Of a stretch of 64,000 bases of DNA, positions 6,090 through 57,375 are shown in pieces. This stretch comes from Fistulifera solaris. Its lineage: Eukaryota > Bacillariophyta > Bacillariophyceae > Naviculales > Stauroneidaceae. The position numbers were made by a program, and so were the translations under genes. The stretch covers positions 62,001 through 126,000 of the forward strand of contig AP026138.1 of the NCBI GenBank assembly GCA_030295235.1. The letters are read 5' to 3'. How positions within the stretch are numbered: the stretch's first letter is position 1; each line of letters opens with the position of its first letter. The notes beneath the pieces were generated by a model that saw only the letters and a list, made by a program, of their open reading frames with translations, was not told where the DNA came from and did not search any database.

Positions 6090-7569
6090 TTAATAATGTT
6101 TAGAAGAGTTGCATAAAGGTAGTTTAGGTAGTCTATAGTTTTCCTGTTTTCTTTTCCGGGCGCAATTGGCATGCGGTTCGGGCAAGCCTTTCACTTTTTC
6201 AATGTGATCTGTTTTGGTGTAACGATAATTGTGATCGCCCTTGCCCATATAATAGCGTGATGTGAGGACATCAGTCGAATAGGAGCTACTTCGGACACCA
6301 ATAAACACATCGGCATTCAATGCTAAATCAAAATTGACCACCGAATGGAGCAACGATCCGTGGTCGACTATGTCCGGATGAGCTTCGTAATACTCTTGCA
6401 CCAGACGCTCTCCGCATTCCAAGACTTGTACCTGCCGCGAACCGACCCTCCATCCCTCACGAACAAGACGATTCAATGTTTTTAAATTGTGTTGCGCATG
6501 CGCTTGGCGTTCGGAAGACTGCTTGGGTGCCATCATTCCCGCCCGTGACACGGCAATGACCAAACCAGTCACCTGTGAATAGTTGGTTTCCAACACCGTC
6601 GCGACTTGCTGCAAGATTTGGGTCAAATTGCGTTCCATATCAATCCCACAGACGTGCGCCATCATGTCCATTTCCAAGCGGGCATGCAAGACAGCATAAT
6701 GGGGTGTAGGAACACATTGCTGTGCGACCGCACGCCATTGCGGTGCCGGACGGAGGGCTCGATACACCCATTCATCGATCTGCGACAATTCCTTTCTAAG
6801 CGTGCTTTTTCTTTTCGTATACTCCAAGTAATCATTCCACAATCGTCCTGCTTGAATGCCACCGCCGTACACGACAGGATGCTGACAATGCTGAACCAGT
6901 GGTAAGAAGTCTTGTTTGCGTGGATTGAATTCTTTGAGTTGTTGTGTGGCAATATTTTTGAGGGGGATGCAAATACCCCCGTTCGAGTGCGGCTTGTTGC
7001 AACGGGTTCAAGGTTATGTTAACGATCGTTCGCGGCATTTCCCAACAATCGGAATTGTGCAAAGGTTCCGATATCAAAAGAGGCAACTGCGGATGAAATT
7101 GATTCCAAAATTCAACATCAAAGACCCATTCCATCGGTATCGGATACCATTTGGATACATTATTTGTTGAAGTGACAATTTGCGTCGACCAGAGAATCGA
7201 AGGTAAAAAGATTTGTTCCAGTTCATGCTGTTTCGCATACAAAACAAAAGCCATCCACCGTAACACTTGATTGCGATAGCCACCCAACAAGCCCGGTGGA
7301 GACAAGAGAGCTAATGTGGAATTGGGAGATTGCTGAATCGGGTGTTTCGCCTCACGAAGGAAATAAGAAAGCACATGATTGCTGCTGGAAGATAAAGTGA
7401 CGTCGAGACGATGCATCGCGAGCAGAAGACATAGTAGATAACCCGCAAAAAGGAGCAAAACGACAACATATTTTCTCCGAAAACGACAGCTCGAGAAGCG
7501 TCTTTGCGGCAACCAGCGACCGTGCTCAAGTTGTATTTGCTGCTCGTGTCGCTTCCGTACAGGACTCAT
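6090..7569 (-). CDS. O-fucosyltransferase-like Golgi protein (one frameshift)
   Basis: This is a type II membrane protein: a short cytoplasmic Arg-rich tail, one hydrophobic anchor (KYVVVLLLFAGYLLCLLLA), then a lumenal domain. The start of that domain has a GGYRNQVLRWMAFVLYAKQ motif, like the GDP-fucose-binding N-terminal motif of O-FucT-type enzymes. The C-terminal half has the family-like segment FDLALNADVFIGVRSSS. Family assignment is by motif and moderately certain. The frame changes once, at a C5 run (6976-6980); removing one base joins both halves without loss, so I read one gene of about 490 aa. It lies next to, and is co-oriented with, the sulfotransferase array, which fits a shared role in building a decorated glycan. 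Confidence 0.65.
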
Positions 7570-8022
7570 GCGTACATAGATTGGAGTATGACCATGAACG
7601 GATAAGTCGAAAAGGATCTATCTATTTGTTGACCGATTCTAGAGCAAGGTAGTCTATCATCAATATTGTCATTCATTTTTCATGTCAAAACTTCCATTGC
7701 AATTTGGTACTATACATCAAAGTGTATATTACCTTTCGTCAAGACTGGATTTCAGTCATGAACTAATCTTCTATTATTTGCCGTTTATTACTTCGCAAAA
7801 GCCATTATGCTTTGTTTGCTATAGATATTTGCGTTGTAATTCGTAAACAAACAATGATTATATACAATACATTTAGCGGTGTATTTTATAAGTACATGAA
7901 GGAAACGTATGACTCGCGCGTCGGCGATGATTCATAAGAAAAGGAAGACGAGTGAAAAATTTTGATGAGAATGTATAATAGCACTATCTCATGGATTCTG
8001 GCCGCTCGCACACAGCCAATCT
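7570..8022. other. intergenic region with one dispersed motif copy
   Basis: AT-rich sequence upstream of the fucosyltransferase-like gene and downstream of the sulfotransferase array. A copy of the dispersed motif lies at 7707-7763 (TACTATACATCAAAGTG, then CAAGACTG and CAGTCATG), oriented plus, so it points away from the gene whose 5' end it flanks. Nothing else is seen. Confidence 0.5.
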
Positions 8023-11000
8023 TTACGCGAACACGTCCGGCCATTCCTCAGAAAACTCGCTGTAGCCCCAAGACTCGACATCATCCCAATTGACGATTTG
8101 CATGGACAAAGGCACGACAGCTTGCTTCGCCAGGCCGGGAGGACTCAAGACACTGCGAAGTAACTGCTTATTGTACGGTTGGTGAAGCAGATTGGTTTGA
8201 ATCCTTTGCACGACATCGAAATGGTTCTGCTCATCGCTCAAATCTCGGTCGTACTCAAACTCTTCGTACGGAATGGAATGCAGGGCAAAATAGTTTCGAG
8301 CTTGTTTGTAGTAGCGGGTCGTCTTTTCAATGAACTCCTCTAGTTCCGACCGATCAATCTCGATGGCATCCTCTTCTGTGGTTCCAACGTTCGTCCACTT
8401 CTTCCTTGCCTTGGCAATCTGGAATGAAACGAAGATTTCTAGCATGTTCCGCCTCCAAAGAACCACATACTCTGTCTCCATGTCGGAAAACAAAGACATG
8501 AACCGCTGTATAGTGGTATTCATCAGCCGTGTAATCTGATCGGGGAAAACCTTCAGGACGAAGTACGCCTGTGGAAGATGCGACGGAATGCGATGAATGA
8601 AATCGAGCACTGCCGCCGGATTTTCAAGTCGCTCCGAAATCACTTTTGAAGCTCTTCGATCACCTTGCGTTGAGAAGAGTTTTGGCCTAACTCTGCAAAT
8701 GCTGTCACAAAGATCTCATCAGGCGACGCGAATTTCCGTGCAGAGAGAGGGCGGTCCGCATCCCAACCACAGCCACGCTGGATCTGGTCGATAATGCGAC
8801 AGAGGACTCGTGCAATGAGCGACATGTCGTCTCCGAAAAACTCGTACATGTTTAACACATCGACCTTTGACTCTTGTCTTGTTGCAAGGTTCTTGATGAA
8901 AGCAAAGAACAGGTTTGATCCTGTGCGGGCATTGGCAACCATTAGGATCGGTTGATGACGTCGTGCACCAGTGCTCGAGGGTTCGCAAATGAAATTGGAT
9001 CGGTCTTGTTTTTGACGAAAGAACGTATCGTTTTTGAAGTGTGTTCGGCAACGTTTTTTCCAATACAAGTTCTTGTTGCAATTGGTCGTTTGATGCATTA
9101 CTGATAACTAGCGACTCACCGCCTGTTGGCACCGCCAAAATATCTGGCCATTCCTCGGAAACTTCGCTGTAGCCCCAAGATTCGACATCGTTCCAGTTGA
9201 CAATCTGTTTTGAAAGCGGCACAGCAGCTTGCTTGACTAGACCTGGTGGATCAAGTACGCCACGAAGTAGCTCCTCATTGTAAGGCTGACCCAGAAGGCT
9301 CGTTTGGATTCGCTGCACGACGTCGAAATGGTGAGCACTGTCGCTCAGATCTCGGTCGTACTCAAACTCTTCGAAAGCCATCGACTTCGAAGCGAAATAG
9401 TTACGAGCTCGCACGTAGAATAGCGCCGTCTTTTGGATGAACTTCTCCAGCTCCGAGCGATCCACTTCAATGGCATCATCTTCTGTCGTTCCTACGTTAG
9501 TCCACTTTTTCATCTGTTTGGCGATCTGGAACGACACGAAAATCTCCAGCATGTTGCGACGCCACAGAATGACGTACTTGGTCTTCATCTCGGAGAATAA
9601 TGCAATGAATTGTTCGATGGTAGTGTTCATGAGCCGGTTGACTTGATCGGGGAATACCTTCAACACAAAGTACGCTTGTGGAAGATTTGACGGAATGCGA
9701 TGAATGAAATCTAGCACACCAGCCGGATTCTCAAGTCGCTGCGATACCACGTCTTGAAGCTTCTTAATTACTCGAAGATGCGAAGGATTACCACCAAACT
9801 CAGAGAGTGCCGTTGCAAAGACTTCTTCGGGCGAAGAGAATTTGCGGTCTGCATAAGGTTTTTGTATACTCCAACCGCAACCACGTTGTAACTGGTCGAT
9901 AATGCGACAAAGAACACGCGATACCAGAGCCAAATCGTCGCCAAAGAACTCATAAAGGTTGAGGACGTTGACCGAATCTTCCTGTTTGGATGATAGATTC
10001 TTGATGAAGGCAAAGAAAAGGTTCGATCCTGTGCGAGCGTTCGCGACAATCAAAATTGGCTGGTGAGGCTTTGCGTTTTCGAGAGAAGTCCCGCAAACGA
10101 AATCAAAACTGTTGTCACGGAAGTCTGCCTTGCCGATGGGGCGAATTTCGTTCACAGCAGCAGTATCAGTCTTGCTCGTCGATACGGTAGACACCGCCAC
10201 CGCGCTATTTTCTGTGCCTGGAAGCTCTTGATGAGCAGGAAGTGCTAGAATGTTTGGCCAGTCATCCGAAACGTCGCTGTAGCCCCAGGACTTGACATCC
10301 TTCCAATTGACGATCTGTCGCGATAGTGGTACAACAGCCTGCTTAGCAAGTCCGGGTGCGTCTAAAACGCTTCGTGATAACTCTTCATCGTACGGCTGGT
10401 GGAGTAGTTCTGTTTGGATCCGTTGCACGACATCGAGATGGCGAGAGCTGTCGCTCAAGTCACGATCATACTCGAATTCCACATACGTGATCGAAGTACA
10501 ATCAAAAAAGTCTCGCGCTTCAAGGTAGAACTGAGTGGTCCTTCGAACGAACTGCTCGAGCGTCGAGCGATCCACTTCAATCGCATCGTTTTCGGTTGTT
10601 CCAACATGCGTCCACTTGTTCCTTTGCTTGGCAATCTGGAACGACACGAAAATCTCCAGCATGTTGCGGCGCCACAGAATGACGTACTGGGTCTTCATGT
10701 CGGAAAATAGAGCAGCGAACTTTTGGATGGTAGTGTTCATGAGCCGGTTGACTTGATCGGGGAATACCTTCAACACAAAGTACGCTTGCGGTAGATGGGA
10801 AGGAATACGATGAATGAAATCGAGAACGGCCGCCGGATTTTTCAATCGCTGTGATATTGCGCGCTGCAATTCGTCGATCACTTGTCGTCGGGAAGGATTG
10901 GCACCAAACTCCGAGAGTGCGGCTTGGAACACTTCATCGGGTGATGCAAACTTTCGATCATAGTAAACGTTTTGCATTTCCCAACCGCATCCTTTTGAAT

Positions 11001-13400
11001 CTGGTCAATGATGCGAGAAAGAACACGTGCAATGAGACTCATATCGTCCCCGAAAAACTCGTACAGGTCGAGGACGTCCACTGCGGAATCTTGTTTGGAA
11101 GCGAGACCCTTGATGAAGCCGAAGAATAAATTGGATCCTGTTCTAGCGTTGGCAACGATCAAGATCGGTTCATGGGGAATCAGGTCGTTTCGAGTTGCTT
11201 GGCAGATAAAATCCACGCCGTCGTCGTTATTGTGGAGGTCCACCTTGCGGATAGGACGCAGCTGATTCAAAGTATCTTGCGAGGCTTGTTTCGCAACAAC
11301 AAGATCCGTCATGATCTCGGTCGTTCCAAACGATTCTTCTTGGGAAGGCAGCGCCAATACATCGGGCCATTCTTCCGCGAATTCACTGTAGCCCCAAGAT
11401 TCCACATCGTACCAATTGACAACTTGCATCGAGAGGGGCACCAGCGCTTGTTTGGTCGTTCGGGGACCATCCAGTACGGCACGAAGCAATTGCTCATTGT
11501 AGGGTTGATGGAGAAGGTTATTTTGTATTCGCCGCACGACCTCCAAATGCTGCTGTTCTTCCCTCAAATCGCGATTGTATTCGAATTCTTCAAACGGAAT
11601 CGAGTTGGACACCAGGTAGTCTCGGGCTTGCCAATAATAACGCGTCGTCTTTTGGATGAACTGCACCAGTTCCGGACGTCGAACCGCAATGGCGTCTTCT
11701 TGCGTTGTACCAATATTCGTCCACTTCTTTCGTTGTTTCGCGATTTGGAAAGAAACGAACGATTCCAGCATGTTGCGGCGCCACAAAAGGACGTATTGGG
11801 TTTCCATGTGAGCGAACAGTGATACGAAATCGTCAATGGTCGTTTTCATGAGACGGTCCACTTGATCGGGGAATACCTTCAAGACAAAGTACGCTTGCGG
11901 TAGATGAGACGGAATGCGATGTATGAAATCGAGCACACCGGCGGGATGTTCCAGACGATGGACGATGACCCGTTGCAGTTCCTCAATGACGTGTCGTCGG
12001 GACGCGTGTGTACCGAGTTCTTCGAGTGCCGTCTCTAACACGGTGGCCGGCGAAGAGAATTTCCGCGTGGCATACCGTTGGTGGGTCGTCTCCCATCCAC
12101 ACCCGAGTTGAATGCGATCCACAATTTGACAAAGGACGCGTGCTAGGAGCGCCATGTCATCGCCAAAGAATTCGTACAAATTGAGGACATCGACTGCAGA
12201 TTCTTGTTGAAAGGCCAAATTTTTGATAAAGGCAAAGAGCAGATTCGATCCCGTCCGCGTATTGGCAACAATCAATATGGGTTGATGCGGTTTGGCTCCC
12301 TGGCGCGTAGTTGGACAAATGGAATCGAAAAAATCATCGTAGTCTTGAATTTCCACCGCGGGCGTAACATCTTGTAGTATCGGTTCCTTTTTGGTACTCA
12401 TTATTGTTTCCGTCGTATAGGACGGCGAAAACAGATCGGGCCATTGTTCGGTCGATTCGGCATATCCCCACGATGCGACATCCGCCCAATTGACAATTTG
12501 TTGCGAGACCGGCACGAGTGCTTGTTTTGTCGTCCCCGGTTGTTCCAACACCTTTTGGATGACGGTTGCGTCGTGCGTTTGCTGCAAGATTTGGGTATGA
12601 ATGCGTTCCAGGACCGCCGCATGCTGTTGCGGGTCGCGCAAATCCCGATCGTATTCAAATTCTTCGAAAGAAATGGCGTGTTGCGTCCAATAGTTTCGCG
12701 CCTGTAGGTAAAAAATCGGCCGTGTGTTGAACAAACCAATCGAGTTCGGATTTTGTCACGGCAATAGCATCATCTTCTTTGGTACCGACATTCGTCCACT
12801 GTTTTCGTTGTTTCGCAATCTGAAAGGAAACAAAGGTTTCGAGCATGTTGCGTCGCCACAAGAGGACGTATTGGGTATCCAAATCGGTCCATAACTGCAA
12901 GAAATCCGCCACGGACAGTTGCAATTTGTCGCTCAAATGGTAAGGAAACACTTTGAGGACAAAAAACGGTTGTAACGAGCGTGACGGGATACGATGCAAG
13001 AATTGCAATAGTGCGGAAGGATGCAAGAACCGTTCCTCAAACACAGTTTCGAGTTCGTGCAAGACGTGTTGTTGGGCGGGCGTCGCATTGAATTCCGTCC
13101 GCGCCGTTTGCAAGACTTCGTCGGGTGTCGCAAATGGTCGTAACGTATATTTCTTGCGGGTATTCCATCCACAACCTTGACGCAATTGATCAATAATGCG
13201 ACAGAGGACTTGCACTAACAACGTTGCATCGTCCCCAAAGACTTCGTACAATTGCAACACTTCGACTTCCGACGAAGAGGCCGCCAAATTCTTGAGGAAA
13301 CTAAAGAAAAGGTTCGAACCCGTCCGGGCATTCGCGAGAATGACCATCGGACGATGCGGTTTCGTTCCCGCTGCCGCCGTGTGACACACAAATGGGTTCT
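8023..13400 (-). repeat. tandem coding repeat: five sulfotransferase modules
   Basis: The PAPS-loop codons (ARTGSN or TRTGSN) lie at 13312-13329, 12243-12260, 11130-11147, 10021-10038 and 8913-8930, giving module spacings of 1069, 1113, 1109 and 1108 bp. Modules 3 and 4 are the closest pair: 10726-10788 and 9616-9678 are identical over 63 bp. Modules 1 and 2 are more diverged. This points to stepwise internal duplication with later homogenisation between neighbours. Confidence 0.85.
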
Positions 13401-13608
13401 TGTCCAACAAAGACAACGTCAAGGGCGGCGCTTGCTGTAACAGCGGATCAAACAGACTCGTGGGAACTTTGTGTCGGACAGTTTGTTGATTGGCAAGCAA
13501 ATGCTCCATGGCTTCTTGATAACTCCATTCGGTCGCAACGGAAATGAGCCACAAGACGATCACGAGCGAAATGAAACGACACGAAATCGATTTGCGGCGT
13601 TGTGCCAT
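8023..13608 (-). CDS. five-module Stf0-like sulfotransferase, type II membrane protein
   Basis: Predicted to transfer sulfate from PAPS to a glycan in the Golgi lumen. The start at 13608 (MAQRRKS) is chosen because the paralogue at 17414-19833 begins equivalently (MRRPKTY) just before the same anchor (LWLISVATEW versus VWCVSIATEW). Five modules of about 360-370 aa follow. Each has a PAPS 5'-phosphosulfate loop (ARTGSNLFF type), a 3'-phosphate motif (LWRRNMLEIFVSFQIAK), EFEYDRDL and a closing TKQAxVPLSxQIVNW...SWGYSE segment. Total length is about 1,850 aa. Four single-base frame changes interrupt it (A6 at 12710-12715; CCTTTT at 10991-10996; T5 at 9009-9013; CTTTT at 8643-8647). Each is repaired by one base and falls at a homopolymer, so sequencing error is likelier than decay. 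Five fused modules in one chain is unusual. Confidence 0.8.
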
Positions 13609-14784
13609 TATTATATGGATTGATTGCGTGTAAATGAATGAAAGAAGAAGAAACCAATGCTCTCGAATGGCTGGGAGAAGGATTGCAACAACAACAACAA
13701 CAAACAAATAAATAATCAATGTCAAAGAGTGTCAACACACGGTAACAACAACCACCCGACAAATGCCGAGGTGCTTTGGGTGGATCAGTGTTTGGCACCA
13801 AGCTTCGGCTGTTCCCTATTTCCACAGTTCCGTACTGACGCGAATTATGCCCTCACTCCGGGCTATTGTCAAGGGCATAGTTCTTGTAGGAATTTCCGTT
13901 GCATTTCACAGTTCGAATTCTCAATCATTTACAGAGATAGGGACTGCCAGTACCGATTTAGAATTTTAAATAGTAAACTGCTCTACAGTTTACTAGAAAC
14001 ACAGTTGGGACATTTTTCACAATGAACGCCAACAGGATTTTCAAATTTCGAATATCGTTCGACGAACTGTTGCTCAATAAGTAAATCGGTCCGTGAATGA
14101 AGGGGGCAAGATTCCAACTGGAACATTCGACATTCCCGCATTGCACTGTTATGAAGCATACTCCTGCGCAGGGCCTAAATCGAAAAGAGTGGCCATCTGA
14201 CAAGCATTTTCGGAAACTGTGTAGTCAATTATCGAACGGGGCACGGCTAAGGCTCAATAATTAGCTTTTTAAAACCGTACTTATGTTACTTATTAGAAAA
14301 AGAAGAGCTTCGTTTGGCTTCCGTTTCTCTAACGCGAAACGCGCACCGTTCATCGAAAAAAGGGATTGGCTAAGGTATAGTGTTTATTGGCTATAAACTA
14401 CTCGAGTATAAGGTTATTAACAGGCTGCCAGATGCCAGCAATAGGGAAGGGAGATCGATTAATAATCGACTTGAGAATTATAGTCGCAAGTCGCAACTGT
14501 TATGGTTCAGACTCCGAGCTTGAATTTTGAACAAGCAACAGATAACCAAAGGCAACAACGCCACAATTTACAACAGCTCGAAAACTAGGGAGAATCCTCA
14601 AATGCCAAATATCCTAAATAATACTCTTTGCCTACAGTTGCAGTCTCGGGCCAGGGAGTCTCCAACTAGGTATGGTGGTCACGTGCTTGGCTTCGCATCG
14701 AGCTAGGTACGGCTCGCAAGTTCGATTCTAATTTTAGGTCAGTGATGGATCAAAACATATATCATTCCTAGTCTACATACAGCA
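13609..14784. other. intergenic region, 5' of the five-module gene
   Basis: No gene is supported. The first 130 bp include a CAA-rich stretch (CAACAACAACAACAA at about 13686-13700) that is probably leader sequence. Further on the DNA is AT-rich with local short direct repeats. A tRNA-like segment lies near 14660-14740. Confidence 0.4.
14660..14745 (+). other. tRNA-like segment with B-box, possible SINE remnant
   Basis: The segment contains GGTATGGTGGTCACGTGCTT, resembling a pol III A box, and about 45 bp later AAGTTCGATTCTAATTT, a good B-box match (GTTCGATTC). GCTTG and CGAGC could pair as an anticodon stem, but the loop is 9 nt and the acceptor and T stems do not close properly, so this is not a working tRNA. 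A tRNA-derived short repeat is the simplest reading. Confidence 0.3.
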
Positions 14785-15977
14785 TTATAATTCTTGTTGT
14801 TCGATGCGATAATACAGCATTTGACTCCACAATTGATGCGGTCCGGGCAAACAAAAGTGCGTCCCATCAAAACTCGCATCCGCCCGCGCCAACATGAGCG
14901 GCGCCGTATCCAAAATTTGAAACGGACGTCGCCGTTTTTCACTGGCGAGAATCCGCAACAACAATTTATTTTGCATGGGTTGTTCCGGGGAATTGCCGCC
15001 ATAGAGACTCCATTTGGCGTGCATGTTGGTTGGGAACCGCCGGCTTGCGAAGAATTCGTATTCCAATCGCCAGCGCCGCGGAGAAAATGCCGTGGTTCGG
15101 TCGTTCGAACAAAAATGTGGGAATCGGGCAAATGACCGTAACGGAGATCCTGCAAATGCGACAGGAGTTTCGTGTAATTGGTGCTCCATTCCGGTCCTTT
15201 CACGCCGCGTCCACAATGATGTCCGTAATTCATGACCAAATAATCGTGCGGTTGCGCGTTTTGTAAGAAGGTCGGTACTTGCGGCAATGCTTCACCACAA
15301 AAATCCGCCAAGCGTTGAATGGTGCGTTCCGCTTCTTCCTGCGAATAATCCAAAATGTGCATTAGTTCACACCGCAAGACTTGCGCCCATTGTCGTGTGA
15401 CACTATCGCCGATCAAATAAATGGTCCGATTGTGCAACAATTTTCGCACACGCTCTTTGTATATCGCAGCATCATACGGTAACACTTGATACGGACCATA
15501 ATCGGATTCCCAAACCCAGGGATCACTCGCATTCAATATACCGGGACTGTTGGCGACGGCTTGTTTCAAAATCGCGCGATGACGGGATTGTTTCGCCTTG
15601 TCGTTACTGTATTTCCACGCATCGGGATCGTGACAATTCCCTTGTCGTTCTTGATCCAGACATTGCAAATGTGCGGTCGAATATTGCAAAGCTTGATGCG
15701 GTCGATGCACCCATCGTCCGGCGGCGGAAGCGGCTTCCGGTGTGCTGTGCACCCGCCACAACAAATCATATTCGGGAAGAGCTGTTGTTGTTGCTGCAAG
15801 ATCCGAAGAGTCTTTTGATATAGGAGATTGAGAAACGGGCGGAAGGATGGTTTGAAGAAAGGAAACCAGACAGGAATAGTAGACGGTCAACACTGTCACG
15901 GCGGCAAAGACACGAACGATCCACGTCATGGTGTTGTTGCGTAATAAAAGAGAGCGCCAGAAAAGAAAAGTTGTCAT
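14785..15977 (-). CDS. TBL/PMR5-like PC-esterase (polysaccharide O-acetyltransferase-like), one frameshift
   Basis: A Golgi-type type II protein with an anchor at about residues 17-42 (start 15977, or the in-frame ATG at 15929). The lumenal domain carries the GDS motif of PC-esterases (IYLIGDSVTRQW) and, near the C-terminus, the DxxH block (DGTHFCLPGPHQLW). These are the two hallmarks of the TBL/PMR5 family, whose plant members O-acetylate cell-wall polysaccharides. The frame changes once near a G3 run at about 15032-15034; joining there gives a continuous protein of about 396 aa (GDWNTNSSQAGG... into NMHAKWSLYGGN). It sits between two sulfotransferase genes on the same strand, which supports a shared glycan-modifying role. 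The donor and acceptor are not predictable. Confidence 0.75.
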
Positions 15978-17413
15978 GAGCGATGAATAAGATGAAAAGG
16001 AAAAGGACGATAAGTTATATTAGAAGGATCAAGAAGGAATGGACGCACGAGCGAGGCAATGCAAAAGACAAAGTGTTGATGTTTGATTTTGTTGTTCGTC
16101 TCCGTTTTTCCATGCGGTTCTCGAAGAAAGAAGCACTGTCCACTGTCGCTCTGGGTGTAATAAGTGTTATAGGCCAATCACGAATTCTTATGTCACACAG
16201 TATCAGTGGTACTTTTGCTGTAAAATCAAAAAGGGGGCTTATGGTTTCCAACAACTGGGATGAAAAAAAAGAAGGAAATAACACGGGATGAGGGATGAGT
16301 GCCTTTGTAAATCGTCCAGCAAAAGTCCAAACACAAAAAATAATCCACAATGCAAACATCTACTTTATATCAGAGTGTAGTAGAGGGAACTGCATCAAGA
16401 CTGGATTTCGCGAGGAGTCACGCGCTGAATCTCTAAACCTAAAGATGATTTTCTTTTTGTTATATATCGTGATTTTCGCATGGATAATCACTCACTTGTA
16501 ACTTGTAACTGTCATCGAGCACATACCGAAAATGGGGAACTGGATTGCCGACGAGCCGTCATCTCTAGCTAGAGAACGATGGTTGCCGTTTGCTACCGTA
16601 AAGAACGTCATCGAATGGCAGCATGAATTAAGTTTCAGCAACAGTAGATGTCGAAATCACAATGCATCCGCCATCGGATACCTAAAGGCGAATTGTTGCC
16701 CCGAACAGGCCAAGCTTTGCGGCACTGGCGTCCGCGGCTATACAGCGTGACTGCACTTCCGTCATGAGTTACGACTTTTCGAGGCTCTCTGCTACCTATT
16801 GACGTTCCTCCTGCTTGATACAACTTTGTCATTTACGTAAAGCTTCATTGCAACTCAAATTTTTAAATGCATCTCCCTGTTTGTATCGCGATCAGCGTAA
16901 CAAATCGATGTTCCCCAACTTTACTACTCCGGAGTATATACATTCGGAGTGTAAACGACCTTTGTCCACGACTGCATTCAGTCATGAATTCATTCAGCTA
17001 GAGACTAGAGACACCCAAATTTTATACCTAAGCACCGATCGCTCTGCAAGCTTGCTGAGCTCACGAAAGTTGCGAAGCTCATAGCAACCCAGCATTGCTT
17101 GCTTTTTGTTTCTTGCGTGGAATTCGACTAATTCTTTCGAAAAATAGCACCTGCACCTCACTTAAAATATACTATAGAAAGAAGGTGTAGTAGAGTTTCA
17201 CGACAAAATCCATCCGCACTTTTTTTTGCTGCGACCTTATTATTTGCTGCGACGACGCGATACCTCGTTTGACGATGATCACTTTCATGAAACGAGATCA
17301 AGTTAAAATTACCATCACAATCGTACAATAACAAAAAGAATGGACTTAAATAACACACATACTAGAGAACCTACTGAAATTTGAGCGAAAACGACGCTGA
17401 AAATGAAGAGAAT
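15978..17413. other. intergenic region with dispersed motif copies
   Basis: No gene is supported. Two copies of the dispersed motif lie at about 16735-16768 and 16931-16990, both plus strand, so antisense to the flanking minus-strand genes. A weaker relic lies near 16390-16430. The rest is AT-rich unique-looking sequence. Confidence 0.45.
16931..16990 (+). repeat. dispersed motif copy
   Basis: GGAGTATATACATTCGGAGTG is followed 15 bp later by CACGACTG (16967-16974) and CAGTCATGA (16979-16987), the inverted-repeat end of the motif found across the window. A second copy about 200 bp upstream has GTGACTG...CGTCATGAG at 16747-16768. Confidence 0.6.
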
Positions 17414-19833
17414 TCAAAGCCTTGACACCGCCGTTGTGTTGGTCGACTCGGCAAACAAATCCGGCCATTCTTCCGCTACCGCACTGTATCCCCACGACTT
17501 TACTTCATCCCAATTTTGAATCTGCGCAAAAACAGGCACAGTGGCCTGTTTGGCTAAGTGGGGATACGCAAAGACATCTTGAATGACTTGCTCATCGGAA
17601 GGAAGATGCAACAGTACGCTTTGAATCTTCCGGGCAATATTCGGATGACCTTTCTCGTCGACCAAATCTCGATTGTATTCAAATACGTGGTACGGAATGG
17701 ATTTGCTATCAAAATAATCTCGCGCCTGTGTGAAATAGCTGACGAAGTTTTGAATGTACCAATCGAGTTCGGGACGCTGAATGGTGATAGCGTGTTCTTG
17801 GCTGGTTCCCTGGAGCGTCCACCCATTCGTTCGCTGAGCGATGTTTGCGGAAACGAAGATTTCCAGTACGTTGCGTCGCCACAGGACGACGTATTCGGGG
17901 CTCATGTCGGCGAAAATGGAAGCATATTCTGCGACTGTCGTTTTCATCTGATGAAAGATGTAATAAGGGAATACCTTCAAAGCAAAGAAGGGCTTCGGTA
18001 ACAACGAAGGAATTCGGTGAATGAAGTTCATGAAACCCGCTGGCTTGCTGTAGCGCTCCGTGAACGCCTTTTGCAGTTCTTTTAAAACGGTTTGTTGCGA
18101 AGACATGTTGAATTCTGCGAATGCCGCCGTAAAAAGTTCTTTCGGAGACGCAAATGTGCGGTCAACATACGATTCAGTATCAGTATTCCACCCGCAACCA
18201 CGTCGGATATGATCGATGATTTGAGAGAGGCCATTGACATGAATGTTGAGCTGTTCCGCGTAAACTTCGTAGAGCAGTATGCCGTCGACTTGGTCCACGT
18301 GTCTCTCAGCCAAGCGACCGATGAAGCTAAAGAAAAGATTCGATCCAGTTCGTGCATGAGAGATCAACACGATGGGCTGATGGCGCTTTGCCGTGGCAGG
18401 CGCGGTCTCGCAAACGAAATATTGCTCTTCTTTGTTGCGTGGCTGGCTTTCCTGGACAACAATTCGCTTTTCCGATCTTAATTCATCGTCAACGGCGGAG
18501 GCCTTATTGTTTGCTGTGATCGTCAAGATCTTTTTGGGAAACAGATTTGGCCATTCTTCCGCTACCGCGCTGTACCCCCACGACTTTACTTCATTCCAAT
18601 TCTGGATCTGCTCCGAAATAGGCACAGTGGCCTGTTTGGCTAAATGGGGATACGCAAAGACATCTCGAATGACTTGTTCGTCGGAAGGAAGATGCAACAG
18701 TTCGCTTTGTATCTTCCGGGCAATATTCGGATGGCCTTTCTCGTCGACCATATCTCGATTGTACTCGTATTCATGATAGGGAATGGATTTGCCATCGAAA
18801 TAGTCTCGCGCTTGTTTGTAGAAACCGACAATATTCTGAATATACCATTCTAGCTCAGGGCGTTGAATGGCGATGGCGTCATCTTTGGTGGTTCCCTGGA
18901 GCGTCCATCCGCCACTCTTCTGCTTAGCGATCTTCAGCGAAACGAAGATTTCCAGTATGTTGCGTCGCCACAGGACGACATATTCCGGGTTCATGTCGGC
19001 AAAATGGCAGCGTACTCCGCTACTGTCATATTCATTTGATCAAAAATATGATAGGGGAATACTTTTAATGCAAAGAAGGGCTTCGGTAGCAAGGAAGGAA
19101 TACGGTGAATGAACTGCATAAACCCAGCTGGCTTGCTGTAGCGTTCAGCGAACACCTGTTGCAATTCTCGTAAAACGGTTTGCTGCGAAGACATGTCGTT
19201 GAAATCTGCAAATGCCGCCGTAAAAAGTTTTTTCGGTGACGCAAATTTGCGATCAACGTACATCTCGGCGTTTGTATTCCACCCACAACCACGTTGGATA
19301 TGATCGATAATCTGAGAAAGGCTTTGGACTTGAATATCGAGCTCGTCCGCGTACACTTCATACAGCATTATGCCGTCGACTTGTTTTTCGTCTTTCTCGG
19401 CCAATCGCCCGATGAAACTAAAGAATAAGTTTGATCCGGTTCGCGAGTTAGATACCATGACGATGGGCTGATGACGCTTTGCCATATCGGGTGCTGTCTC
19501 GCAGACGAAGAAATGCTTCTCTTCGTTTTTCAGTTTTCGGCCGTCTTCAGTCTGAGCCAGCTGCTCTGCTTCGATGTTAGACTTCACGCCTTGTTCCTTT
19601 CGCAGATTGTTTTGTCGGACGACGACCTGCGTTTCCTGTGAATGCTCCTGAACAATCATTTTTACGGGAACCATGGGAAGTGAAGCATCCTTTTCCCTCT
19701 GAAACATGTTCTGCTGTTCCGAGAGAATGATTTCGAAAAATGCTCGGGAGCTCCATTCGGTGGCTATCGAGACGCACCAAACCGAGCAGAGGAGTGCCAA
19801 CAGGCTGTGTGGATACGTTTTTGGACGACGCAT
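17414..19833 (-). CDS. two-module Stf0-like sulfotransferase, type II membrane protein
   Basis: The start at 19833 (MRRPKTY) precedes a membrane anchor (LLALLCSVWCVSIATEW) and a Gln/Lys-rich stem. Two sulfotransferase modules follow: PAPS loops SRTGSN (19429-19446) and ARTGSN (18338-18355), 1,091 bp apart, each with a YVVLWRRN...EIFVS 3'-phosphate motif and the closing TKQA-like (AKQATVPxxxQIQNW) segment. One frame change at an A4 run (19001-19004) is repaired by one base (AEYAAIFADMNPEYVVLW), so I count one gene of about 805 aa. The modules differ from those of the five-module gene in their middle part (LLYEVYAEQL instead of LNLYEFFGDD), which suggests different acceptor preference. Confidence 0.8.
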
Positions 19834-21171
19834 ATGTTTAGTACGGATGAAGCGTGTAACGATCAGCAATGTTTGGGTCAATTGCAGTGATGAGATGAAC
19901 GGCATGAGATGGTGAATGCGACGTCTCGATGATCAGTGGATGTGGATACGAATCGACTGACTTTTGTTTTTGTGGCACGCTGCTCCCTCTTCGAGCAATA
20001 TTTCTGAATGTTTGGGTTTATCGTTGATCGTTGCTCGTCTAGCAGGGGCTGTTTACTTTAGCTCTGTGACCTTTGTTTGTGACAGACGAAAAAAATGTCG
20101 GGATCACGCAGTAGAGACTATGAATTATGTATTCAGCATTCAGCCAGTGAGTGTGGTGCACCGTATTGCCGATCTGTTCACTGTTCACCGAAAGACACAC
20201 AGCTTATTCGCAATTATCTACTTTTTACGGTCTTCTTTTGGCACGCTTATAAGAAGCAAGAAGACGGGGATAGAGATGAGAAATTGAACATGAAGAATGA
20301 AGGTTGAAGGTGCTGATGACTGATGATACATGAAACGGGGTAACTTGAAATAATAGGAAATTACAAGCATCTAGTAATTTTACGGAGTATAACAATGCCA
20401 GGTGCCAGGTAAGATACCAGGTAAGGGGTAAGGGTTTGCAATTTGCATCTCTAGTAGGTAAGTTAGTAAGCATTAGTTGCTGGTTGACGCCTCTCCGCTT
20501 CCGCTCACCTTTCTCCGTTTGTCGTACTTTTGTGCCATGGGCCATGGGTGCCATTATCCATTATCCATTGGAAATTGGAACACTAGACTAGACTTATAAG
20601 TTAAAGCCAAGATTGGGAACTGGGAGCCAGAAGCCAGAAGCCAGAACCCATAAATTTGTAGGAAGTGTTTGGCATTTATTATGTAAAGCATAAAGCATGT
20701 CAAAGGTTGACGTATCATCAATCATGAAAAATGTGCTCGGAGTATCAATGATAAATGTTAAGCCATCCGAACTCGAATTCAGTCGAAAGCCGAGCTACAG
20801 GCTACGCAGTAACATTTGCTCATTGCATGCAGAATGCAGAGGAGTCGTCAGTTTTAACTTTTAACGGCTTTCAGGAAAGAAACAATGACAATATTTACAA
20901 ATAATAAAAGCTAAGCCGCAATCCGCTATCCGCAATTTTTAGCCATGGCAGTCGTGATAGTGATAGGCCTAAACTATTATTCCCGATGTAGCTGAAGCCC
21001 TTTTGCCTTACCCTCTAAGCCGATACTGGTACTTGGTACAAGCACAACAAATTGATAAATAATTTCGGGTGAGCTCCTGCATAAAATTAGCTGATTCTTG
21101 CAACACGAATTAGAACGACTTGTTGTTTTGTGGTTATCAGTAATGTTCCATGTGCCTCGTGTATCTTGAAC
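19834..21171. other. intergenic region rich in short stuttered repeats
   Basis: No gene is supported, although short frames exist. Many words are repeated in tandem with slight changes, for example GAGCCAGAAGCCAGAAGCCA near 20625 and CCAGGTGCCAGG...CCAGG near 20400. A TTACGGAGTATA word occurs near 20380. The appearance is one of replication-slippage sequence. Confidence 0.4.
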
Positions 21172-23655
21172 CTAGGCTAAGTGCCCCGGGAACAAATTCT
21201 CCCACTCATCAAGAGGACGGTTATATCCCCATTCGACTACGTTATTCCAGTTCACAACTTGTTCGTTCAGTGGTAAAGTAGCTTGCTTTGTCGTCCATAA
21301 CCCCTGCATAACATCGTTGGTGACCTTCGAATCAGGCCTATGCTGCAAAAGGTGCTGCAAATGACGAATTGTTTCTTGTTGACGCGACTCCTCGGACAAG
21401 TCTGTCTGATACTCGAACGCGGTATAGGTCACATTGTTTTTCGCGAAAGCTGTCTTGATCTGGTGATAAAAGTATGTTGTCGACGCCACATAGTTTTCAA
21501 AGGCGGTCTTGTCGACCTGAATAGCATTCTCGGCTGTAACTTCTACGTTCATCCAGTGATTTGTGGAAAGCGCAATTTGCAAAGATACATAGGCCTCCAA
21601 CAAATTTCGTCGCCACAAGACGATCACCACCGCATCTCGAGGAATTTGTGCGATGAATGGCTCTATCGAATCTCCTAGATGCTCTGGAAATACTTTGAGC
21701 GCGAAGTAGGACTGCTTGGGCGATGGAATTCCTTGCAGGAATCGTATTAACGCCATGGGATCGTCATGTCTTTTTTGAAATTGGTCCTGGAGTTTCTGAA
21801 ACAGTTCCGTTCCGCTGTGTTCGGTCATTAACGATACAAACATATCCTCGGGCGCCCGGAACTCTTGATACTTTGGAAAATATTTCATGGCTCGGTCACC
21901 CATCTGACACTTGTCCTTTAAATGATCGATAATCTGGGACAAAGCAAATAGCTTCAAAGAATCACTGGCTTGCGGACTGAGTAATTCCACTAGGTTCAGC
22001 ATATCAGCATCGGGCCAAACGATACCGAGCATTGCCAAAAAGTTAAACAGCAAGTTCGACCCAGTCCTTGGTGTCCCAAAAACGAAAATAGGCCGATGAG
22101 AATTCTCTTCCGTAGTAGGGCAGATGAACCTTTGACTCTCCATATCGTTTGTCACCGGACTTTCAGTTATGGTTGTATCGTTTACTGGTATATCGACGGG
22201 AGCGTCCGGAACGGATTCGATTCCAAACAGATCATCTGACCACGTTTCTTTGTATCCCCAATCGTCTCGTAGCTGATTCCAGTTCAATATTTGATCCGGC
22301 AGTGGAGCGTCCTTGACAAAGTCGGGCAATTGTAAATGCTGTTGTGTCGCTGGCAACTGCAACAACGATTGTAGCTTACTCCACGTCGATAATAGCTCAC
22401 TGGCACTCGCGAGATCGCGATGATATTCGAGTAGCAAGGATTGTTTCGGTGCCTTGGTTTGCAAGAAGTATCGGATTTTCCCAAAATATTCTTTCGTCTG
22501 TCCCACATAGCGTTCCATCGGTTCTTGTTCTACCACCATCTTGCTTTCGGCGGGCCAATCAGTGGAATGCTCTTCCAACAGGACACGCTGGTGCGCCGCG
22601 TACGATTGCAACAAATGCTGTCGATAGATGACCACAAAGGCACTGTCGTGTTCTTGCAATTCGAGCAAGAAGGCCTCGAGTGGCATATGAAAATGCTTCC
22701 ACTCTTCGCGTTGCAACAAAAAGACAAAATGGGAATGGACCGACGGAATTCGGCGAATAAAGGCCAACCATTGCCACGGCCGCAAAAAGCGATTTTGAAA
22801 TTTGCGCATCAATTCGAGGTACAAGTCGCGGCCGCTGGATTCGGTCATGAGTTGGGCAAAGAGGGCGTGAATGTCTTGTCCAAAGGTGTCTTGTTGCGGC
22901 GTGTACCATACGTCCGGATCGCCGATCTGACAATTTTGTTTCAATTGATCAATCAAACGAACCAGTAGTGGTACTTGCTGTCGATCGTCGGCAAACAAAT
23001 CCGACAATACCAAGAGATGCGGATCTTGGGCCATGATCTGCAACAGAGTCTCGGCCCCGGAATGGGCTTGTGTTAATAGGACAATTGGTTGATGTAGGTG
23101 AAATTCCGCGGACTCGGCCACGGGACAAAGAAAGGGATTCTTGTCGTTCGTCGTCTCGTCAGCATTGTTGCGTTGTGGAATGGAGTTCTGGGGCGGTGGT
23201 GGCATTTTCTTTGTTGTGGCGGGCGTCGTTGGTTTCTTTTCTTGACCGAGCCGTTTCGGTCGTTCTTTGACGCGTCGCTCCTCCACGGCGCGATACACGA
23301 CTTGCGGTTGATGATGATGATTGAGTTCGGGAGAAGGAACGTACGGATGTCGTAATAAAGTCGTAATACTCCAAACGCTAAAGAGCAAACTGGCCATGCC
23401 AAACAACACAAAGGCCGGATTTTTGACTATCATGATATCTTCGTGCGGTGTTTTTCGTCGATACGGAGTACTACTGTGATTTGAATTGTTGAGAGAAAGC
23501 TTTTGACGCAAGGAATTGGAACGAAATAGGAAATTACGAGCATTGTTGGAGGAAGGCGGTCGTTGCGATGACTCCGTGACATCTTGTTGTTGCAACGGCA
23601 GCATAAAGTAATCCGCCGATTTGCTGCGTCCGATCGTTCGTTTCCGTGTACTCAT
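21172..23655 (-). CDS. two-module Stf0-like sulfotransferase; first module degenerate
   Basis: 827 aa, uninterrupted. A Ser/Asn/Arg-rich cytoplasmic tail of about 75 residues is followed by an anchor (FVLFGMASLLFSVWSITTLL), then a Pro/Lys-rich stem. Module 2 is complete: PAPS loop TPRTGSNLLF (about 22054-22072), IVLWRRNLLEAYVSLQIAL and TKQATLPLNEQVVNW. Module 1 keeps the overall pattern (LIDQLKQNC, FIRRIPS) but the PAPS loop reads TQAHSGAETLL and the 3'-phosphate motif reads VIYRQHLLQSYAA, so RTGSN and the paired Arg are lost. By family knowledge module 1 should not bind PAPS; it may now be structural or bind acceptor. The frame is intact, so this is change under constraint, not decay of the gene. 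Confidence 0.85.
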   Translation of the reverse strand: MSTRKRTIGRSKSADYFMLPLQQQDVTESSQRPPSSNNARNFLFRSNSLRQKLSLNNSNHSSTPYRRKTPHEDIMIVKNPAFVLFGMASLLFSVWSITTLLRHPYVPSPELNHHHQPQVVYRAVEERRVKERPKRLGQEKKPTTPATTKKMPPPPQNSIPQRNNADETTNDKNPFLCPVAESAEFHLHQPIVLLTQAHSGAETLLQIMAQDPHLLVLSDLFADDRQQVPLLVRLIDQLKQNCQIGDPDVWYTPQQDTFGQDIHALFAQLMTESSGRDLYLELMRKFQNRFLRPWQWLAFIRRIPSVHSHFVFLLQREEWKHFHMPLEAFLLELQEHDSAFVVIYRQHLLQSYAAHQRVLLEEHSTDWPAESKMVVEQEPMERYVGQTKEYFGKIRYFLQTKAPKQSLLLEYHRDLASASELLSTWSKLQSLLQLPATQQHLQLPDFVKDAPLPDQILNWNQLRDDWGYKETWSDDLFGIESVPDAPVDIPVNDTTITESPVTNDMESQRFICPTTEENSHRPIFVFGTPRTGSNLLFNFLAMLGIVWPDADMLNLVELLSPQASDSLKLFALSQIIDHLKDKCQMGDRAMKYFPKYQEFRAPEDMFVSLMTEHSGTELFQKLQDQFQKRHDDPMALIRFLQGIPSPKQSYFALKVFPEHLGDSIEPFIAQIPRDAVVIVLWRRNLLEAYVSLQIALSTNHWMNVEVTAENAIQVDKTAFENYVASTTYFYHQIKTAFAKNNVTYTAFEYQTDLSEESRQQETIRHLQHLLQHRPDSKVTNDVMQGLWTTKQATLPLNEQVVNWNNVVEWGYNRPLDEWENLFPGHLA

Positions 23656-24112
23656 AGTTCGCTTCAGGTGACGTTAAGAGAAACGATGTTGTGACGATAG
23701 ACGACCTTTGGGTCGCAATCTTTCTTGGAGCAGCGAAGGAATACTCCGCCGCACCGATAATAATGAAACGAAAAAAGGGGGTCAAAAAAGCGCGCGCCGC
23801 GAGGCCAACATTGCCCCCTACAAAAAAGTGTAGAAAGAAGTCGACCCGGGACTCAGGTTCTACTAGAGTATCCAGAAAGCAGTAGGAACTTCTCCATAAT
23901 TTCTGTCTTCGATGACTGTTATTGTGACCGAAACAAGACCGAATCCAGTCCGGGACTGACGGAGTCACATGGCGCATGGCGGCGGGCGGCGGATGACGAT
24001 GATAAAAAGCGCAACACAATAAGACACAAGATCTTGTTTTTCGTCTCTCGCCCTACCAGACTAATATTATTATTCATTCTCCTCACTATTCATGTTTCCT
24101 TCACACACAATC
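23656..24112. promoter_or_regulatory. divergent promoter region between two sulfotransferase genes
   Basis: 457 bp separate the start codons of the minus-strand two-module gene and the plus-strand single-module gene. The interval is the only divergent promoter in the cluster, so it could co-regulate both genes. No TATA box is convincing. A direct GTCCGGGACTGACGG segment near 23955 weakly recalls the dispersed motif. Confidence 0.35.
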
Positions 24113-25644
24113 ATGACGCGACACAAAGCGTTTGCCTGCCTACTAGCTTCGTTGGTTGTTTCGGGTTTATTTTGGTTGAATTCGTTCAACACACAATGGG
24201 AAAAACGACTGATTTCACCGACGGTCGAGCAACTCATGATGCAGGACGACGCTGCGGCAACCAATAGTCCTACTGTATCTCCGGCTTTACTTCCGGAGTT
24301 ACAACCAGAAGAACAAGAGGAATACGGGGAGGAATACGAACTGGAAATAGTTGACGAGGAAGAGGAGGAAGACGAACAGAATATAGACGACGAGGAAGAC
24401 GAGGGAGATGAACACTACATAGACGAGGAAGAGTACGAAGAAGAAAAATACAAACACGCAGAAGAAGAGAAGGAAGAAGGACAATACGAAAAGAAGAGGA
24501 GGAACATGAAGAGGAGCCCCCAATGATTGGAAACAATTTCTGAAGAAGAGGAAGCTTTAATAGATGATTACGAAGATTCCGATGTTGAAAGTTCTTCACC
24601 GTCATCGGAGATGGAAACGAGTTCGGGGGATGAACTGATGGAAGATGACGAAAATTCGGCTCTCGAAACGACATCAACGATGGTTCCTGCGTACACGTTC
24701 CTTTGCGACACGGCCCCGCCTCACGCACAACCCTTCGAGCCGATCATCATGATGGCAAATGCACGAACGGGCTCCAATCTTTTTTTTAGTTTTCTCGGAC
24801 GCTTGGCCCTCTTCAACATGGATCTACTGCCACTCTATGAAATCTTTGGGAATGATTCACGATTGTTGGCACAATTGCTGAATAATATCGTGGAACAAAT
24901 TGAAACAGGATGTCAATGGGAGGACTTTGTCGTCGATCGAACCGCGACGGATCCCGAACAACTCTTTGCGGCAATGGCCACCAGCAGTGATTCGACTCAA
25001 CAACGGATATTGGAAGAATTGCAACATGTCTTCACCCACCGTTTAGAAGATCCGGCGCCCTTTTGGAATTCTTGCACCGCATTCCATCGACCATGCCACG
25101 GGCCTACTATGCCTTGAAAGTGTTTCCGTTTCATGTCTTGGATTTGATGAAGATGACCGTCACCGATTTCTTGGCCTTGTTCGAGAGTATGCCCGAGACG
25201 CAATACATACTACTGTGGCGACGCAACATGCTGGAAATCTTTGTTTCCTTCAAGATTGCTCTCACACGCCAAGGATGGGTCAACGTCGCTTCGACGCAAG
25301 ACAATGCCGTGCAAGTGGATCGTACCGAATTGGAATGGTTCGTGCAACGTCTTGCCGACTTTTATCAACAAGCCGGCGATTATTTGTCAACCAAGTCCTG
25401 TCATATCTTTGAATACGATCAGGATTTGAGTAATGCGACCCAACAATTGAGTACCGTTCAACGCATCCAGACGGAAGTCTTGCAATTAGCTTTAAATGAA
25501 GAACAAGTGCAGATGGTCGTGGAGAAAGCCGGAACCACGAAACAAGCGGTTGTGCCATTGTCACAACAGATTGTCAATTGGGAAGAAGTGCAAGAGTGGG
25601 GATACAGTGAATCGTCCTTGGATTGGCCGAATCTATTTCCGTGA
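24113..25644 (+). CDS. single-module Stf0-like sulfotransferase with acidic stem (frame changes)
   Basis: The start ATG at 24113 (MTRHKAF) precedes an anchor (FACLLASLVVSGLFWL). A long Glu/Asp stem follows (about residues 60-185), then one full module: ARTGSNLFF (24761-24787), YILLWRRNMLEIFVSFKIAL and TKQAVVPLSQQIVNW. As written, the frame meets TGA at 24524 and shifts at a T4 run (25061-25064). The TGA is bypassed if two compensating one-base changes occur in the purine-rich stem (about 24490 and 24530): that alternative frame stays acidic (EEEEHEEEPP). The T4 shift is repaired by one base. I therefore favour an intact gene with sequencing errors over a pseudogene, but cannot exclude decay. 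Confidence 0.65.
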
Positions 25645-26032
25645 AAAAGTGAGGACCCGTTTAATGATTCGGCAAGTCTAGTCGATGGACCGAAGCAATG
25701 GAAGTGGCTCGAACCATACTTCGTGTCCTTGAAGTAAAACTTTGAATCATCAGCGAGAAGAAACAACTTTCTTTGTGATCTTCGGTATGGAATGAAAGGT
25801 GATCTCGTTTCCGATCTGAATCGTGTTTCACCGAAAATTGGACGTGTGATTCACGGACGAAGCAAGGGAAAAAGGACGATAAGAGGGATCACGGCGAGCA
25901 TAAGATTTTCAGGAGATCCACAAATAATGCGAAGAAAACGAAATAGGTTTTGAGAACGCACTTGATGCATGATTGATTCGCATGTTCATTTCGTTTAGAA
26001 GGAACCCGATTGTGCCTACATTTGAATTGACA
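25645..26032. other. intergenic region
   Basis: 388 bp between two plus-strand genes. No repeat, RNA gene or motif is recognised. The sequence just upstream of 26033 is presumably promoter and leader. Confidence 0.35.
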
Positions 26033-26827
26033 ATGGCCAAGTTTTCCAAGGACTACGCGTCGATTCCCTCCATCGCGGCCGACATCGAACATGGTCCAGA
26101 CCAGCACCGTTCTGCAACGTCGATCTACCACAGTTCCTTCCGTACACTCATCTGGGCTACGGCAGCGGTAGTGGGTCTCACGCTTCTGATTTGTTCCATG
26201 GCTCATGATTGCGGTATTTGGCAGTCGAGCCAATCAAATATGCCCATGAATGCGACGGATCCGTACGCCATGGAAGGTCGAGCCAAGTACGATGATTCGG
26301 ACATGATGTCGAAAGATGAATCCAGCCCCGTTCCGGTTGGCCCTGGAGGACCTCCGCCGCCTCTTCCACCCAAACGATTTTCGGAAGCCAGACACGGTCA
26401 CAAGAATCACAACCATGACAAGTCGCATCACCATCACCATGACGAGCCTCATCATAATCGTCATCACCATCATCATTCCAAGCAAAGTACCAAGAGTAAA
26501 GATGAACCCAGTGAAAGCGACGATGAGAAGGGATGGATGTCTTCACTTCACGCGTGGTGGAACAATATGGCAGATAAAGTCGATGAGGAGGTGCACGAGA
26601 AAGAAGATGAGAGCAATGACAAACACGACGAAGATGATAGCGATGACAAAGATGAAGATAGCGATGAAGACAGTGACAAACAAGACGAACAAAACGAAGA
26701 TGATAGCGATGATATGAAAATGGGAAACATGACGGAGGAAGAGGAATCCGTCGTCGTCGTAAAGCATGCAGCGAACGACGCGTTGAATGAACCAGATATG
26801 ACGACCGATGAAAATGGCGACAATTGA
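26033..26827 (+). CDS. single-pass membrane protein with His-rich and acidic tail
   Basis: The start is placed at the ATG at 26033 (MAKFSKDYAS) because the upstream in-frame ATG at 25973 adds a non-conserved-looking peptide; 264 aa. A membrane segment (LIWATAAVVGLTLLICSMA, about residues 42-60) follows a short tail. The other side has a proline patch (GPGGPPPPLPPKR), a dense His cluster (about residues 115-150) with many HHH and HxH runs, and a long Asp/Glu/Lys region. His-rich stretches of this kind often bind zinc, copper or nickel, so metal handling or metal-regulated trafficking is possible. No family is recognised. Composition is the only functional clue. Confidence 0.6.
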   Translation: MAKFSKDYASIPSIAADIEHGPDQHRSATSIYHSSFRTLIWATAAVVGLTLLICSMAHDCGIWQSSQSNMPMNATDPYAMEGRAKYDDSDMMSKDESSPVPVGPGGPPPPLPPKRFSEARHGHKNHNHDKSHHHHHDEPHHNRHHHHHSKQSTKSKDEPSESDDEKGWMSSLHAWWNNMADKVDEEVHEKEDESNDKHDEDDSDDKDEDSDEDSDKQDEQNEDDSDDMKMGNMTEEEESVVVVKHAANDALNEPDMTTDENGDN

Positions 26828-51605: not shown

Positions 51606-51990
51606 TTGATATGAGAAGAGTGATAGACGCCGCTATGCAGATTTCAGTTGCTAGTGATTGCAGGAAAAGAAGCTTTGATAAAAAATGGTGAATACGATAG
51701 TAGTGATGATTGATGATTCACTCGTCTTTTGTTGTCATTGTCATTGTCTCCTTTCATCGTCATAATCGTCCGCGCCGCATGCATTCTCTAAAACGTGTAC
51801 TTCTTCTGTTGAATCTTTACTATACCGCAAATAAAAGAAGGGATGCGCCGATGGCCAGTCGGGTTGGCAGCAGCGACATGCGACATACTCCGTAGTACCT
51901 AGTATAATTTGAAAAAAAGCATTTTCTATCCCATTACCTGGTATGAAGTCAAGTATGAGCTAATCGGCATAAAAGACGCCAGCGCAATCA
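51606..51990. other. intergenic region
   Basis: 385 bp between two family members. TACTCCGTAGTACC occurs near 51888. No gene or motif copy is seen. Confidence 0.35.
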
Positions 51991-53562: not shown

Positions 53563-54060
53563 TTTGAGGCAGGTATGTCGCTAGCCTTTGATTTTCGATT
53601 GCAATAGAAGATTTTATTTCTATGATAGATCTGGGTGCTTATTAGGACCTCTACACTGAAGAGAAATAGGGCATGATCGATGTTTCTCTAAAATTCTTTC
53701 ATGCAGGCTTGTTAGCACAACGCGCTCATCTTTTTCGGTGCGGGTATAATAAGACACATTTCGTCAGTTCCAGTACCAGTATGGTACGATACTGTATTGT
53801 GCATCATCTTGCCTTTGCTTATCACCATGTTCCTTATTGGAGTTTCGTCCTTGTTGGGGACTGACTTGTCTTGTCCCGAATGAACTTACATCACGATTTT
53901 AATTCACAAACCAGTACCGGTAGGTACCTGACCCTACTACGCGGCATGTGTAGAAATTTATTGACTACAATATTGGCCGAAAACACAAGAAACATTTTAA
54001 GAGCGACGATAGTCGGGCATTATATTCTTCCGTCACGTTTTAAATGGTCTTTATATACTT
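53563..54060. other. intergenic region
   Basis: 498 bp between a minus-strand start codon and the 3' end of the GSA gene. AT-rich, with CAGTACCAGTATGGTACG and ACCAGTACCGGTAGGTACC words near 53770 and 53910. No gene is supported. Confidence 0.35.
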
Positions 54061-57125: not shown

Positions 57126-57375
57126 TTTTCAAGGTTGTGGATTTGTACAAACGTTGCGTGGACCATCGCATCGATCTCGGGGAGGATGCACTTTATCCAA
57201 TCAGAATTGTTTGTCGTAGGGCAACAGTAGACAATTTAGTGGGATCGTTCTGCTGAGAGCGTACAGCTAGCTGCCCATTCATGCTCTTATTTTGTTACAT
57301 AATTTTGAAGTTCGATCACCATTTCAAAAAAAATCATGAAATGTTAAAATGCATTTTTACAGAAACAGGTTGATG

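Follow-up and report, generated by a model that had tools for sequence, protein, structure and literature searches.

Clustered Stf0-like sulfotransferase genes and putative synthase-sulfotransferase fusions in the diatom Fistulifera solaris

The mycobacterial trehalose sulfotransferase Stf0 (PF09037; structure 1tex) has a P-loop fold, a loop for the 5' end of 3'-phosphoadenosine 5'-phosphosulfate (PAPS) and a second conserved arginine motif. Synthases of the BcsA and CslA types combine a glycosyltransferase family 2 (GT2) core and a QxxRW-type motif with a membrane domain, and PC-esterases of the TBL/PMR5/Cas1 type (PF13839) carry GDS and DxxH motifs. Here, we examined six adjacent genes of the diatom Fistulifera solaris, located at positions 6090-25644 of a 64,000-nt stretch of its genome (contig C23, positions 62001-126000; "the window" denotes this whole stretch). 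Four of them encode sulfotransferases (STs) that share all three features with Stf0; unlike it, they carry their modules in tandem with an N-terminal anchor or, elsewhere in the genome, occur with a GT2 partner, and they are only 13% identical to 1tex and fall under the Pfam cut-off. We consider it somewhat better than an even bet that these genes form a tandem-expanded set of Golgi PAPS-dependent STs which, together with fusion synthases encoded on other contigs, decorate a secreted or cell-wall polysaccharide.

Diatoms are reported to release a C6-sulfated mannan (PMC13063451), and a diatom fucan is named in a title cited by PMC11468063. PMC4659905 lists diatom carbohydrate sulfotransferases, Stf0 not being mentioned in its available parts. 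According to the available text of PMC11468063, the genes for sulfated glycans in brown algae remain unknown and diatoms have no GT23. The same article describes a brown-algal cluster of an ST with GDP-fucose pyrophosphorylase/fucokinase. Like the F. solaris cluster, it is a stramenopile case of an ST gene linked with genes of a sugar pathway; its gene content differs, and no GT2-ST fusion is described in the parts available.

The F. solaris assembly comprises 51.7 Mb in 61 contigs, and the species is described as an allodiploid with two subgenomes (PMC5935921). Two CRISPR target sequences published for F. solaris (PMC13276009) each occur exactly twice in the assembly, on the contig pairs C38/C39 and C7/C8, which fits the species and its two subgenomes. 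The homoeologous partner of C23 is contig C24, whose segment 60001-90000 runs collinear with the window over the window's first 35.4 kb; most of the main aligned blocks are 84-91% identical, and one is 74% identical. The six genes, with the modules of the largest, are as follows.

6090-7569, minus strand: O-FucT-superfamily-like protein with a hydrophobic segment forming a putative type II anchor; frame break near 6950; the C24 copy is open over more than 500 aa.
8023-13608, minus strand: ST5, a five-module Stf0-like sulfotransferase with an N-terminal anchor, identified from motifs and frames; modules near 12429-13368, 11343-12302, 10234-11182, 9124-10077 and 8026-8969.
14785-15977, minus strand: PC-esterase (TBL/PMR5/Cas1-like) with an N-terminal anchor; frame break near 15028.
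17414-19905, minus strand: ST2a, a two-module Stf0-like sulfotransferase with both motifs in two of two modules; frame break near 19000; absent from C24.
21172-23655, minus strand: ST2b, a two-module Stf0-like sulfotransferase in an 833-aa frame that is open throughout; module 1 lacks both PAPS-site motifs.
24092-25644, plus strand: ST1, a one-module Stf0-like sulfotransferase with an N-terminal anchor and an acidic linker; frame breaks near 24524 and 25061; the C24 copy is open over 579 aa.

The original prediction, made from the window alone, had described these six genes as a cluster for a sulfated, fucosylated and acetylated polysaccharide. Its gene order, its families and its count of four ST genes with ten modules (5+2+2+1) were borne out, and Pfam scans of 20 selected frames found no further family among the open frames between the cluster genes, in keeping with its claim that no other gene type intervenes. 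It had given every gene an N-terminal membrane anchor; five of the six have an N-terminal hydrophobic segment scoring at least 1.5 (19-residue Kyte-Doolittle), and ST2a falls under 1.5, its N-terminus being similar by eye to that of ST5. It left unsaid that five of the six genes carry frame breaks, a point discussed below.

The RTGSN-type 5'-PAPS loop was present in nine of the ten ST modules in the window, as was the WRRNxLE motif. Module 1 of ST2b has neither, reading TQAHSGAE and YRQHLLQ instead; because its C24 copy likewise lacks them (TQAHSGAE and IYRQNLLQ, by eye), this module is probably a retained non-catalytic domain. We call the family Stf0-like, and do not file it as Stf0, because the modules score 18.2 bits against PF09037, under the curated cut-off of 22. 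Against PF13469 (cut-off 27), ST2b scored 18.9 bits, under the cut-off, and a two-module protein of C37 scored 29.2 bits, above it. An AlphaFold model of ST5 module 2, built with 20 aligned sequences, reached a pLDDT (predicted local distance difference test) of 90, and a Foldseek search with it returned the mycobacterial Stf0 1tex at rank 2 (probability 1.00; template-modelling score on the target 0.51) and a human hydroxysteroid sulfotransferase at rank 9. The predicted fold thus supports assignment to the P-loop sulfotransferase class, so that the class given in the original prediction gained support from the model, even though its O-FucT and Stf0 labels both rest under Pfam cut-offs. A search of the PDB with an ST profile found no relative, and scans of viral contigs and prokaryote genomes gave none either, although these used short peptide patterns that may miss distant relatives.

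In a tree of the modules, all five ST5 modules paired with their own C24 counterparts with strong support, indicating that the five-module array predates the subgenome split. Module 1 of ST2b formed a long branch whose placement may be false, and module 2 was joined to the modules of C36 and C37, a join that may also be false according to a warning of the tool. Two whole-genome searches (35 and 25 matches) listed the family at only three homoeologous pairs, C23/C24, C34/C35 and C36/C37, these locus counts being lower bounds. Contigs C3 and C4 hold several matches to another ST family, Sulfotransfer_2 (PF03567), some of them 14-19 kb apart, and these may also be clustered.

At all four places outside the cluster (C34, C35, C36 and C37), a GT2 gene lies immediately upstream of the ST on the same strand. 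This protein is cellulose-synthase-like (PF13632, 84 bits; best solved relative BcsA, 2.3e-21) and has a QxxRW-type motif (QQKQRW); it shares with the BcsA and CslA synthases the GT2 core and membrane domain, and differs in carrying one to four Stf0-like domains past the last hydrophobic segment. The gap between GT2 and ST is 62, 62, 71 or 72 nt long, begins with GTAAGT and ends with AG, and its excision keeps the frame in four of four cases. The GT2 frames are similar to one another as far as the donor site and dissimilar past it. As a control, an internal intron of the C36 and C37 GT2 genes (82 and 83 nt) was excised by these splice rules, which restored a sequence that is intronless in C34. 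The ST exons of C34 and C35 have their first Met (residue 73 or 72) beyond the PAPS loop and no earlier ATG, so a whole ST domain could be made there only within the GT2 protein. Judged by this arrangement, the C34-C37 genes look like synthase-sulfotransferase fusions. The array on C36 has four ST modules (L004:3951-7898) and that on C37 two (L005:3451-5385); the sequences of C36 modules 2 and 3 match exactly across 927 nt, and modules differ by 0-64 within an array and by 76-104 between the two arrays, suggesting recent array turnover or, in part, an effect of assembly. A structure model from the GT2 alignment reached a pLDDT of 40 and was not used.

The hydropathy scan found one segment before the GT domain and five after it in locus L006, and likewise five after it in L004 and L005. 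An odd number would place the ST on the opposite side of the membrane from the GT domain. The GT domain of BcsA is cytosolic, and PAPS is imported into the Golgi lumen; with a cytosolic GT domain as in BcsA, the ST would lie in the lumen, where the anchored STs of the cluster would also act. If the intron is spliced in vivo, C34/C35 and C36/C37 would encode a membrane protein in which a cellulose-synthase-like GT2 ends in one to four ST modules; this single protein would build the sugar chain on the cytosolic face of the membrane and add sulfate to it during its passage into the Golgi lumen. The STs of the cluster, a tandem-expanded P-loop family predicted to depend on PAPS and to act in the lumen, have as neighbours a transferase of the O-FucT superfamily and a PC-esterase that is probably an O-acetyltransferase. 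Neither C23 nor C24 yielded a polymerase of this kind when searched for GT2, and the cluster enzymes most likely decorate a polysaccharide made elsewhere, adding more sulfate, acetate and perhaps side sugars. The sulfation of a polysaccharide, part of the original prediction, now has stronger support than the cluster by itself would give, since all the other ST members found in the genome lie directly behind, and are apparently spliced to, a GT2 synthase-like protein.

The claims about the two partner genes fared differently. The C24 copy of the PC-esterase scored 52.8 bits against PF13839, above the cut-off of 27, and has the motifs GDSVTR (GDS) and DGTHFCLPG (DxxHxCxPG), making O-acetylation plausible. 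Two more PC-esterase genes lie about 5 kb apart on each of C34 (359772-365004, L008) and C35 (389912-395122, L009), contigs that they share with the single-module GT2-ST genes at a distance of about 165-170 kb. Fucosylation gained no support: the unbroken C24 copy of the O-FucT-like protein scored 27.3 bits against PF10250 and the piece in the window 19.5, both under the cut-off of 31.5. The O-FucT superfamily also includes transferases of other sugars. When set against the O-FucT members of this genome by hhalign, the O-FucT-like protein gave a probability of 2% with small alignments, and a PDB search with it found no match.

Several observations weigh against the reading of Golgi STs and fusion synthases decorating a polysaccharide. 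The Pfam scores of the ST modules and the O-FucT-like protein are sub-threshold, as noted, and none of the scanned ST, O-FucT-like or PC-esterase proteins matched NCBIfam. The first Foldseek hit by E-value was a GTPase. The GT2 of locus L007 has one segment before the GT domain and only four, not five, after it. Between C34 and C35, the ratio of nonsynonymous to synonymous substitution (dN/dS) is 0.297 for the ST domain versus 0.127 for GT2, constraint thus being weaker on the ST; the ratio for the C36/C37 GT2 is 0.026. A second GT2 of the same family, in tandem upstream of the GT2-ST gene on C36 (648683-650457, L010) and C37 (595097-596865, L011), has no ST exon behind it. That the fusions and the cluster share a polymer is an inference.

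Another explanation falls only a little short of an even chance: the STs would have duplicated in tandem beside two unrelated Golgi genes, the three families acting on different glycans or proteins with no common pathway. The ST genes and modules are indeed paralogues, and further members of the O-FucT and PC-esterase families occur at other loci in the genome. C24 carries the run of O-FucT, five-module ST, PC-esterase, two-module ST and one-module ST genes, without a counterpart of the gene at 17414-19905; because the genes flanking the cluster are equally collinear between C23 and C24, this conserved linkage has no special weight, and it tests neither the status of the six as a gene cluster nor the idea that they may all act on one polymer. 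On the other side, the genome holds no further close paralogue of the cluster's O-FucT-like and PC-esterase genes, and 0.0165% of simulated trials placed both partner types 10 kb or less from an ST locus. This simulation was crude, using rough counts of 3 ST, 3 PC-esterase and 8 O-FucT loci per subgenome, and it was posed after the result had been seen, so it is suggestive only.

The state of the reading frames also speaks against functional Golgi STs, and it raises the possibility, which we regard as unlikely, that the cluster is decaying, with several genes reduced to pseudogenes in at least one subgenome. Frame breaks occur in five of the six window genes, ST2b alone being open throughout. 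ST5 has four, near 12735, 10993, 9006-9055 and 8644; the last three are absent from its C24 copy, which has four of its own, opposite window positions 12826, 12083, 11435 and 8698. The break near 12735 is common to both copies (near 72207 on C24) and of equal length; both need one base fewer in a T run to continue the module, which would fit an old lesion, recoding at this site or a sequencing error made twice. Relative to C24, the five cluster genes have 19 indels that are not multiples of three in about 12.1 kb, whereas five flanking genes, about 7.1 kb together, have 6, an excess that makes decay possible, and one two-module gene is present in one subgenome only. Some of these indels pair to restore the frame (8+16 in an OTU gene, 5+52 in ST2b). 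Against decay, several breaks amount to a single base more or less within a short homopolymer, the flanking genes contain breaks as well, and the O-FucT gene, the one-module ST and most of the PC-esterase are open on C24, as is ST2b in the window. Spliced introns, considered as a general cause of the window breaks, were rejected for most of them because three of the four ST5 breaks are missing in C24 and several breaks are one-base indels. The dN/dS values between C23 and C24 were low, at 0.187 for O-FucT, 0.139 for ST5 (1789/1809 codons), 0.103 for the PC-esterase (351/351 codons), 0.131 for ST1 (315/315 codons) and 0.193 for ST2b (only 198/828 codons), with 0.131, 0.125, 0.100, 0.147 and 0.051 for the five flanking genes. 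Such values point to purifying selection, which kept the cluster genes intact in sequence through most of the period following subgenome divergence; the breaks in the window may be assembly errors or recent decay.

That the GT2 and ST genes of C34-C37 are separate neighbours, as an in-frame ATG 14 residues into the ST exon and ahead of the PAPS loop on C36 and C37 would allow, is quite improbable given the 62-72 nt gaps with GTAAGT/AG sites and a frame kept in four of four cases, the GT2 tails that are dissimilar past the donor, and the lack of an ATG before the PAPS loop on C34 and C35.

Two further features of the window lie outside the cluster. The gene next to it (25973-26827, plus strand) encodes a membrane protein with one membrane-spanning segment and many His and acidic residues; it has a copy on C24 and no Pfam match. 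At 50163-58913 (minus strand), the frame list shows, by eye, at least three adjacent paralogous proteins whose family is unassigned.

GT2 enzymes invert, and beta linkages are expected from an inverting GT2 that uses GDP-mannose. For this reason, the sulfated alpha-1,3-mannan of PMC13063451 was a poor fit as the product of the GT2-ST proteins; a term search of the available text of that article found no biosynthesis terms. A bolder version of the preferred reading, which we put forward as doubtful though conceivable, is that self-sulfating synthases of diatoms (GT2 with one to four lumenal Stf0-like modules) make and sulfate the main sulfated matrix polymer within a single protein, the window cluster serving as a dedicated finishing set. 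If so, an inverting GT2 with a GDP-beta-L-fucose donor would give an alpha-L-fucan.

Literature searches, with most subscription papers outside their scope, found no paper combining Stf0, sulfotransferase and diatom, and, among the papers listed, no fusion of a GT2 or cellulose-synthase-like protein with a sulfotransferase and no bifunctional synthase of this kind by title or the start of the abstract; with this coverage, the novelty of the GT2-ST fusion is provisional. A working biallelic knock-out method has been described for F. solaris (PMC13276009), making the question directly testable. The tandem ST modules suggest how sulfate groups could be placed densely or in a pattern, and the putative synthase-ST fusions would be concrete stramenopile candidates for the hitherto unknown enzymes that build the sulfated polysaccharides of diatoms.

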